From Candidatus Taylorbacteria bacterium RIFCSPLOWO2_12_FULL_43_20 (GTDB lineage Bacteria > Patescibacteriota > Minisyncoccia > Phycocordibacterales > HO2-43-120), in contig MHSK01000015.1 of the NCBI GenBank assembly GCA_001821295.1, positions 1 through 51,007 of the forward strand: a DNA stretch of 51,007 bases. Direction: 5' to 3'. This document shows positions 44,609-46,097 of this stretch, one piece after another. Below the pieces are notes generated by a model. The model ran no database searches. It was not told the DNA's origin and was given only the letters and a program-made list of their open reading frames with translations. How positions within the stretch are numbered: the first letter of the stretch is position 1; each line of letters opens with the position of its first letter. The translations under genes were made by a program, and so were the position numbers.

Positions 44609-44679
44609 TTGCGGAGGCCCGAATTGCACGGGCGCCTCAAGGTTATGAGCCTTGCGAGTTACTGCTTCTCTACCCCGCA
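44609..44679 (-). tRNA. tRNA with CAU anticodon (tRNA-Met elongator or tRNA-Ile2)
   Basis: 71 nt; acceptor TGCGGGG/CTCCGCA with one G-U pair and discriminator A. The anticodon arm is CAAGG-CTCATAA-CCTTG. The stem lacks the three G-C pairs of initiator tRNA. The T-arm is GCCCG-TGCAATT-CGGGC: position 55 is G rather than U. CCA is not encoded. Confidence 0.88.
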
Positions 44680-45156: not shown

Positions 45157-45262
45157 TTATCCACGTGTATCCCCTCACGGGGTAACTAGATCATTCATGG
45201 CTTTGAATATGGGTCAATAATTGCAATTACCCCATCAAGGGATACACGTGACGTTATCCACA
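45157..45262. mobile_element. Element L, copy 2, flanked by TTATCCAC
   Basis: Nearly identical to 32457-32562; only a few bases at each end differ. Ends CACGTGTATCCC and GGGATACACGTG are perfect inverted repeats here, and TTATCCAC lies directly outside both ends. Confidence 0.82.
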
Positions 45263-45304
45263 TGAATCAGTTGATTAATCATATGATTAATCAACTGATT
45301 CATG
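45261..45304. promoter_or_regulatory. Perfect 44-nt palindrome, probable operator
   Basis: CATGAATCAGTTGATTAATC followed by AT and its exact complement: 22 bp per arm with no spacer. It ends directly before the TATAAT box of the AbrB-like gene, so it covers the -35 region. It probably binds a dimeric regulator, most simply the product of the gene itself. Within it, GATTAATC is repeated on both arms. Confidence 0.7.
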
Positions 45305-45310
45305 TATAAT
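45305..45310 (+). promoter_or_regulatory. -10 box of the AbrB-like gene (leaderless)
   Basis: TATAAT directly follows the palindrome and ends 7 nt before the ATG at 45318. Confidence 0.65.
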
Positions 45311-45317
45311 TGTATCC

Positions 45318-45500
45318 ATGGCACGAAGAAAAATAGAGGATAAAAACGTTCGGTCTCTCATCAAAAATCGTCAGCGTAATAGCTATTCACTGTCGCTTCC
45401 GATAGATATCATTCGCCGTTTTGATTGGCAGCATCGGCAGAAGCTTCAGCTTACGATTGATAAGTCAAGAAAAAGGATAATTATTGAGGACTGGAAATAG
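45318..45500 (+). CDS. AbrB/SpoVT-like DNA-binding protein
   Basis: 60 aa. RNSYSLSLPIDIIRRFDW is the swapped-hairpin AbrB pattern (S-x-x-x-x-L-P-x-x-x-x-x-x-x-W), followed by RQKLQLTIDKSRKRIIIEDWK, the second strand pair. Such proteins bind DNA as dimers and often act as antitoxins or autorepressors. No toxin gene follows. The palindrome over its own promoter fits autoregulation. Confidence 0.8.
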   Translation: MARRKIEDKNVRSLIKNRQRNSYSLSLPIDIIRRFDWQHRQKLQLTIDKSRKRIIIEDWK

Positions 45501-45550: not shown

Positions 45551-45619
45551 TGTCATTCCCGCGAAGGCGGGAATCTAGGCCTCATTTTAATCTGGATTCC
45601 CGCTTTCGCGGGAATGACA
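45551..45619. repeat. dRS3-like hairpin element, copy 4
   Basis: TGTCATTCCCGCGAAGGCGG and its partner CCGCTTTCGCGGGAATGACA flank a 30-nt middle. The left TAGGACTTACG end seen in other copies is not found here. Confidence 0.85.
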
Positions 45620-45723
45620 CCACTCAATCTTGTGAGGAGTTACTGTACAGAAATGGACTAAGAGGGACTAAGAGAGTTGAATTCTTTCGTATTATTTGTT
45701 AAATTGATCAAACAGTGAAAATT

Positions 45724-46031
45724 GCGGCTGTAGCTCAACGGTAGAGCACTCGCCTGTCGATTGGCAGCTTTTTATTGAAAGATAAATTGAAACTTTCTGG
45801 GATATCGGTGAAGCCCGAATCAGCTTTTTGCGTTGCTTAAAGAAGAGAAGGGGAATACCGAGGGAACCTCGAAAATCGCTTTTGTGATTTCGGGGGCGCC
45901 GTAGAGACTAGATACCGGAACACCTAAATAATCAGATATCTGACTACAAGGTGAAGATATAGTCCATGCCATTATGTAAATAGTGGGTAAATGCACGCGA
46001 GAGGTTGTGGGGTCAGCACCCATCAGCCGCG
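45724..46031 (+). tRNA. tRNA-Asp(GUC) interrupted by a group I intron
   Basis: Exon 1 is 45724-45757 and exon 2 is 45994-46031. Joined, they give acceptor GCGGCTG/CAGCCGC, D-arm GCTC/GAGC, anticodon arm CTCGC-CTGTCAC-GCGAG (anticodon GTC) and T-stem GTGGG/CCCAT, with discriminator G, the Asp identity base. The intron splits the anticodon between its second and third bases. The T-loop (GTCAGCA) is unusual. CCA is not encoded. Confidence 0.9.
45758..45993 (+). ncRNA. Group I self-splicing intron, 236 nt, no ORF
   Basis: P1 is visible: exon CTGT with intron C pairs with GGCAG (45762-45766), leaving the U-G wobble at the 5' splice site. The intron ends in G. The conserved core has GTAGAGACTAGATACCGG (R side of P7) and AAGATATAGTCC (S side), whose GACTA/TAGTC arms pair. 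No homing endonuclease frame is present. Exact splice sites are inferred from these rules and from restoring a tRNA-Asp anticodon arm. Confidence 0.88.
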
Positions 46032-46036
46032 CAAGG

Positions 46037-46097
46037 AAAAGCCCCGAATGGGGCTTTTTGCTTGCTCGAAAAATATCAAGGTTTAACCTTGATATTT
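46037..46097 (+). terminator. Terminator of tRNA-Asp and family H hairpin copy 4
   Basis: AAAAGCCCC and GGGGCTTTT around GAAT (46037-46059) form a strong intrinsic terminator just after the tRNA. AAATATCAAGGTT-T-AACCTTGATATTT (46071-46097) is a perfect family H hairpin. Confidence 0.9.

Follow-up and report, generated by a model that had tools for sequence, protein, structure and literature searches.

A predicted group I intron of a mobile lineage interrupts the anticodon of the sole tRNA-Asp gene found in a Patescibacteria genome

We analysed a 51,007-nt stretch of DNA, here called the window, and propose that positions 45758-45993 are a group I intron of a mobile lineage that would restore the GUC anticodon in the sole tRNA-Asp of its genome; we put the probability of this reading at about 0.95. 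The intron is 236 nt long and lies inside the anticodon of the tRNA-Asp(GUC) gene of an ultra-small bacterium. The evidence consists of the sequence itself, a structure tested by covariation, splice sites located with empty homologues, the range of host tRNAs, and the sole copy of the gene; from these, splicing chemistry in the cell is predicted.

Results

Position of the intron in tRNA-Asp

The 5' exon reads GCGGCTG-TA-GCTC-AACGGTA-GAGC-A-CTCGC-CTGT, and the 3' exon, after the intron, reads CAC-GCGAG-AGGTT-GTGGG-GTCAGCA-CCCAT-CAGCCGC-G (Table 1). ARAGORN reported nothing for the unspliced stretch and tRNA-Asp(gtc) for the joined exons. The joined exons form a cloverleaf with a GUC anticodon by ARAGORN, and carry C38 and G73 by reading of the sequence, as expected of tRNA-Asp. 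This bears out an earlier note on the same DNA, which had described a tRNA-Asp with discriminator G and a CTGTCAC loop.

The earlier note had also placed the intron at exactly these coordinates, and we retain its boundary. In the window copy, a C starts both the intron and the 3' exon, and the sequence alone also permits a boundary one base further on. The introns of relatives begin with A or G, and no one-base slide is possible there. Because of these relatives, and of the rule that a U.G pair marks the 5' site and a G ends the intron, we place the boundary after U35. Our data thus support a predicted group I intron that splits the tRNA-Asp(GUC) anticodon between U35 and C36.

The T loop of this tRNA is GUCAGCA (window 46011-46017), which departs from the canonical TTCRANY. 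An identical T loop is present in 12 intronless relatives, and the odd loop is therefore no argument against a working tRNA-Asp. The combination of a short D loop with the T loop GUCAGCA was seen in the window copy and in L068-L071, L073-L075 and L077-L081, whereas tRNA-Asp of relatives with a longer D loop has the usual TTCRA.

Table 1. Features of the split tRNA-Asp gene, in window coordinates
Feature	Position	Strand	Remarks
tRNA-Asp(GUC) 5' exon	45724..45757	+	Ends ...C32-U33-G34-U35; ARAGORN calls tRNA-Asp(gtc) after joining to 45994-46031; uninterrupted in relatives
Group I intron (predicted)	45758..45993	+	236 nt, CGATTG...AAATG; RF00028 match; covariation in 16 aligned introns
Internal guide sequence GCAG	45764..45767	+	Forms P1; partner exon CUGU 45754-45757, with U.G at the splice site; invariant, 16/16
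P2 hairpin, GAAA tetraloop	45771..45786	+	Both-side changes in 5/6 pairs
P3 5' strand	45795..45800	+	Partner 45915-45920; both-side changes in 5/6 pairs
P4-P5	45805..45861	+	P4 45805-45809/45857-45861; P5 45814-45816/45850-45852; P4 A-U/U-A swap 9:7
P6 and P6a hairpin	45863..45900	+	Both P6 pairs invariant
P7 5' strand GACUA, G-binding site	45906..45910	+	Partner UAGUC 45960-45964; invariant, 16/16
P8 hairpin	45921..45953	+	Both-side changes in 2/4 counted pairs
P9.0 5' strand	45966..45967	+	Partner 45991-45992, adjoining the 3' splice site; Y-R pair
P9 hairpin, GUAA (GNRA) loop	45969..45986	+	Both-side changes in 5/7 pairs
tRNA-Asp 3' exon	45994..46031	+	C36, A37, C38, anticodon stem, T arm, acceptor, discriminator G73 at 46031
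G+C-rich hairpin, then T run	46037..46059	+	Probable intrinsic terminator for this gene; direct sequence reading

Empty sites in relatives

A survey of related genomes, which the earlier note had named as a check, covered 148 genomes of the same order by DNA search. A tRNA-Asp intron of 204-250 nt was found at exactly the same site in 16 genomes, including the window's own and that of a member of the same genus (G001, locus L062), and tRNA-Asp was uninterrupted at the predicted junction in 12 genomes. A second intron lineage, "type B", occupies the same 35/36 site in tRNA-Asp (L082) and in tRNA-Asn (L084, L089 and L096), and the latter three score higher in Rfam, at 71-87 bits. Type B and the window lineage may be two lineages that converge on one site, or that share it.

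Structure and covariation of the intron

A match to the Rfam model RF00028 spans positions 45746-45986 and scores 45.6 bits (E 1.6e-10 in a local search, 7.9e-11 genome-wide). The gathering score of RF00028 is 50, so the window copy would go unlisted by Rfam's own rule and is missed by a default Rfam scan; this sub-gathering score counts against the group I reading. We aligned 15 tRNA-Asp introns of the same order with one related tRNA-Asn intron (alignment A1, n=16), and compared them with a hand-drawn structure comprising the acceptor and anticodon stems, P1-P9 and P9.0. Across the 16 aligned introns, 97.8% of cells were paired, as against 34-45% when the partners were slid by 1-3 columns. 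Double-sided changes were found in 29 of 55 pairs, while shuffles gave 11.0 +/- 2.0 and none of 500 reached 29. Covariation was strong in P2, P3, P8 and P9; in P4 it was limited to double changes at one of five pairs, and P1, P6 and P7 never vary among the aligned introns. The pseudoknotted P3-P7 core, P4-P6 and P8 of a group I intron are thus recovered by covariation, and every counted helix pairs in the window copy.

All 16 aligned introns have the U.G pair at the 5' site within P1 and end in G, and the P9.0 pair is C-G in ten, U-A in four and U-G in one. Direct folding of the unspliced RNA gave z = -2.9 for a fold that does not contain the pseudoknotted core, because the folding program considers nested pairs only. 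We found no convincing P10, in which the guide would pair with the 3' exon, in the window intron, and this counts against the group I reading. The GAAA loop on P2, the GNRA loop on P9 and the lack of P5abc point toward subgroup IC3, and are only suggestive. Overall, the earlier note had based its group I call on the U.G pair in P1, the P7 arms GACTA/TAGTC and the terminal G, all of which are present; the call holds up with the match to RF00028, the covariation in 16 introns and the empty sites in relatives.

A single tRNA-Asp gene

We next consider the copy number of the gene. The window's genome (1.008 Mb in 38 contigs) is rated 100% complete. The tRNA model found 39 other tRNAs in it, and their types as called by ARAGORN include no Asp. 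A search of the genome with the joined tRNA matched only the two exons in the window; the earlier note would have given up its reading had a second, uninterrupted tRNA-Asp accompanied a failure to splice, and no such gene was found. Provided that the genome is complete, all Asp codons are read through the split gene, and tRNA-Asp function would depend on splicing. Similarly, no intact tRNA-Asp was found in the 15 intron-bearing relatives, within the sensitivity limits of BLAST; the weaker contiguous matches examined there were tRNAs for His, Ile, Val, Phe, Thr, Met, Arg and Lys.

Host tRNAs across Patescibacteria

Scanning GTDB genomes for the P7 core motif returned at least 113 stretches, and nearly all of 80 listed stretch titles were Patescibacteria or unnamed bacteria. 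ARAGORN run over all possible joinings proved far too permissive as a classifier, so we assigned host tRNAs by pairing of the anticodon stem, acceptor and T stem, with hand reading of weak cases. By stem pairing, the matches listed comprised 51 Asp, 40 Asn and 12 Tyr loci (103 in all); after hand reading of the remaining ten, they comprised 52 Asp, 46 Asn, 14 Tyr and one Leu, the last a tRNA-Leu(UAA) locus from a bin that carries the name Bdellovibrio. Hand reading corrected one apparent tRNA-His host, L188, to Asn, and the misread "weak" calls L105, L124, L125, L174 and L198 to Asn, L135 to Asp, and L204 and L212 to Tyr.

A U before the intron and a G at its end were search conditions for the 103 GTDB loci, and agreement with that rule is therefore not independent evidence in this set. 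Neither a restriction to GUN anticodons nor a GTG or ATG ending was imposed, and CTGT before the site was scored rather than required. Among the 103 matches listed, the host anticodons are nevertheless confined to GUN, 98 introns end in GTG or ATG, and 97 have the guide GCAG 5-17 nt past the 5' site; the other six have a long insert ahead of it. Of 380 genomes sampled evenly from the phylum, 9 contained the exact core motif. We conclude that the arrangement is common in Patescibacteria, not rare.

In uninterrupted genes the anticodon loops are CUGUCAC (Asp), CUGUUAA (Asn), CUGUAAA/C (Tyr) and UUGUGGW (His, from two genes only). The guide GCAG fits C32-U33-G34-U35 in the tRNAs for Asp, Asn and Tyr. 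The two tRNA-His genes do not match, since they have U32 and one C-G pair with the guide would be lost, and no tRNA-His host was found among the matches listed in the GTDB scan. This correlation suggests that GCAG may limit the host range: Asp, Asn and Tyr tRNAs would serve as hosts because their anticodon loops contain the CUGU half that is the intron's address.

Host switching and HNH genes

A tree of 130 intron cores requires at least ten changes between Asp, Asn and Tyr hosts. SH-aLRT was the sole measure of support, and many of the branches lack resolution; when strongly supported branches are counted by themselves, no fewer than three host changes are still required for Asp. Judging from these sequences, the intron lineage is mobile within Patescibacteria.

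An open reading frame lies between the 5' site and the guide, in the P1 loop, in five distinct tRNA-Asn introns that are 519-557 nt long (L127; L138, which is identical to L180; L166; L206; and L209). Three of four proteins scanned matched HNH (PF01844; E 1.3e-5 to 6.7e-4), two of them above the curated cut-off. In all five introns the frame continues through the guide into P2, and the same stretch of DNA thereby serves as protein code and as ribozyme. The HNH endonuclease of these tRNA-Asn copies probably drives homing, a role that we infer; the window intron copy has no HNH reading frame.

Neighbourhood of the gene

Upstream of the tRNA-Asp gene, the window contains an inverted repeat at 45551-45622 (TCATTCCCGCGAAGGCGGGAATC ... 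GATTCCCGCTTTCGCGGGAATGA) that resembles small mobile repeats, and large imperfect inverted repeats at 45160-45500 (ATCCACGTGTATCCC ... GGGATACACGTGACG; AATCAGTTGATTAATCATATGATTAATCAACTGATT), directly followed by a 60-aa open reading frame that looks like an AbrB/MazE-type DNA-binding protein. A tRNA-Met(CAU) at 44609-44679 on the minus strand has the unusual T loop UGCAAUU. Group I introns are also present in the 16S (L048) and 23S (L049) genes of this genome, together with other large inserts in both.

Discussion

We envisage the following route for splicing. In the precursor, exon C32-U33-G34-U35 would pair with intron GCAG to form P1, placing the U.G pair at the 5' site, and a guanosine bound in P7 would attack after U35. 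The freed U35 would then attack after the terminal G, positioned by P9.0, and its joining to C36 would restore the GUC anticodon. Two stems, the acceptor stem and the anticodon stem of 5 bp, would additionally keep the exons together, and the intron-spanning anticodon stem may hold the 3' exon in place of P10. In Anabaena tRNA-Leu, the anticodon stem reportedly holds the 3' exon.

One reading to be weighed against ours is that the intron is real and no longer splices unaided, either because it needs a host protein or because the gene is decaying into a pseudogene, with its function supplied by another locus. The Rfam score under the gathering cut-off and the unusual T loop would fit such a loss. 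However, no counted helix is left unpaired in the window copy, P7 and P1 are invariant, the T loop is common to intronless relatives, and a genome rated 100% complete has no other tRNA-Asp; we consider this alternative unlikely, although a protein may assist splicing. It is very improbable that assembly or binning has brought in a split tRNA-Asp from another organism. The assembly is indeed a draft of 38 contigs, but the gene lies within a 51-kb contig that also carries ordinary genes and three further tRNAs, the intron recurs at this site in G001, a genome of the same genus, and the window's genome would otherwise be without tRNA-Asp.

An archaeal bulge-helix-bulge intron, spliced by proteins rather than acting as a ribozyme, would also suit a location within a tRNA anticodon loop, and size is no bar to it. 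Against this stand the complete group I core with its covariation, the agreement with the U.G and terminal-G rules, and a site at 35/36 where archaeal introns usually lie at 37/38. Moreover, the host is a bacterium, and to our knowledge bacteria lack the bulge-helix-bulge endonuclease. We regard such an intron as scarcely credible, and retain the self-splicing group I intron as the preferred reading.

Like the window intron, the IC3 introns of cyanobacterial and plastid tRNA-Leu(UAA) lie in the anticodon. They are short, usually have no endonuclease gene, and carry GNRA loops on P2 and P9. The tRNA-Leu loci L155 and L218 have the P7 core motif in common with the window family. By contrast, the tRNA-Leu intron site follows U34, whereas the window family inserts after U35 and uses a different guide, GCAG, opposite CUGU. 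The tRNA-Ile(CAU), tRNA-Arg(CCU) and tRNA-fMet(CAU) introns of proteobacteria and cyanobacteria are likewise group I ribozymes in anticodon loops, but they differ from the window family in tRNA, site and guide; fMet introns may carry an endonuclease gene, and the genes of the window family are HNH (PF01844). Phage records yielded no homologue of the split tRNA-Asp gene. Two IMG/VR viral contigs contain the P7 core motif, one (L218) in a tRNA-Leu(UAA) intron after U34 and one (L217) outside any recognisable tRNA.

The earlier note's remark that such an intron in tRNA-Asp is rarely or never reported is right for the older literature consulted; it does not stand for the phylum, where the arrangement is common, and the title of a 2025 preprint indicates a report. 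The consulted portion of a 2014 review describes bacterial group I introns as predominantly in tRNA and rRNA genes, and that portion does not name tRNA-Asp (PMC3984707). The tRNAscan-SE 2.0 paper (PMC8450103) describes fMet and Ile2 intron cases missed by the program, and PMC8172020 mentions, giving no detail, group I introns in some of the tRNAs in its genomes, most of which are CPR. Group I introns in CPR 16S and 23S rRNA (Tsurumaki 2024, PMC11270868) share the hosts and differ in the genes of insertion; the main text of that paper does not mention tRNA. Cyanobacterial "group I introns" of 22-49 nt (PMC5733544) were not counted as a precedent, because we judged them too short for group I. 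PMC12641178 cites a 2025 preprint by Nakagawa, Amikura, Omae and Suzuki on group I introns in tRNAs of Patescibacteria (bioRxiv 10.1101/2025.07.03.662931). Judged by its cited title alone, to which our comparison is confined, the preprint probably covers the intron family described here.

More broadly, the introns could represent an unreported, phylum-wide mobile ribozyme family, limited by GCAG to tRNAs with C32-U33-G34-U35, moved among the essential Asp, Asn and Tyr tRNAs by HNH genes whose frame crosses the guide and P2, and making the decoding of entire codon sets ribozyme-dependent; we advance this tentatively and consider it rather doubtful. Most likely still new are the address rule with observed host switching and the overlap of gene and ribozyme. 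The family offers a natural test of how group I introns are sited, with a guide of 4 nt and three host tRNAs, and tRNA-His, which differs by one base and was not found invaded among the matches listed, provides a contrast case. ARAGORN and Rfam at its default threshold miss the intron, with the result that genomes are reported to be without tRNA-Asp, -Asn or -Tyr, and tRNAs missed in this way could be mistaken for gene loss in reduced genomes.
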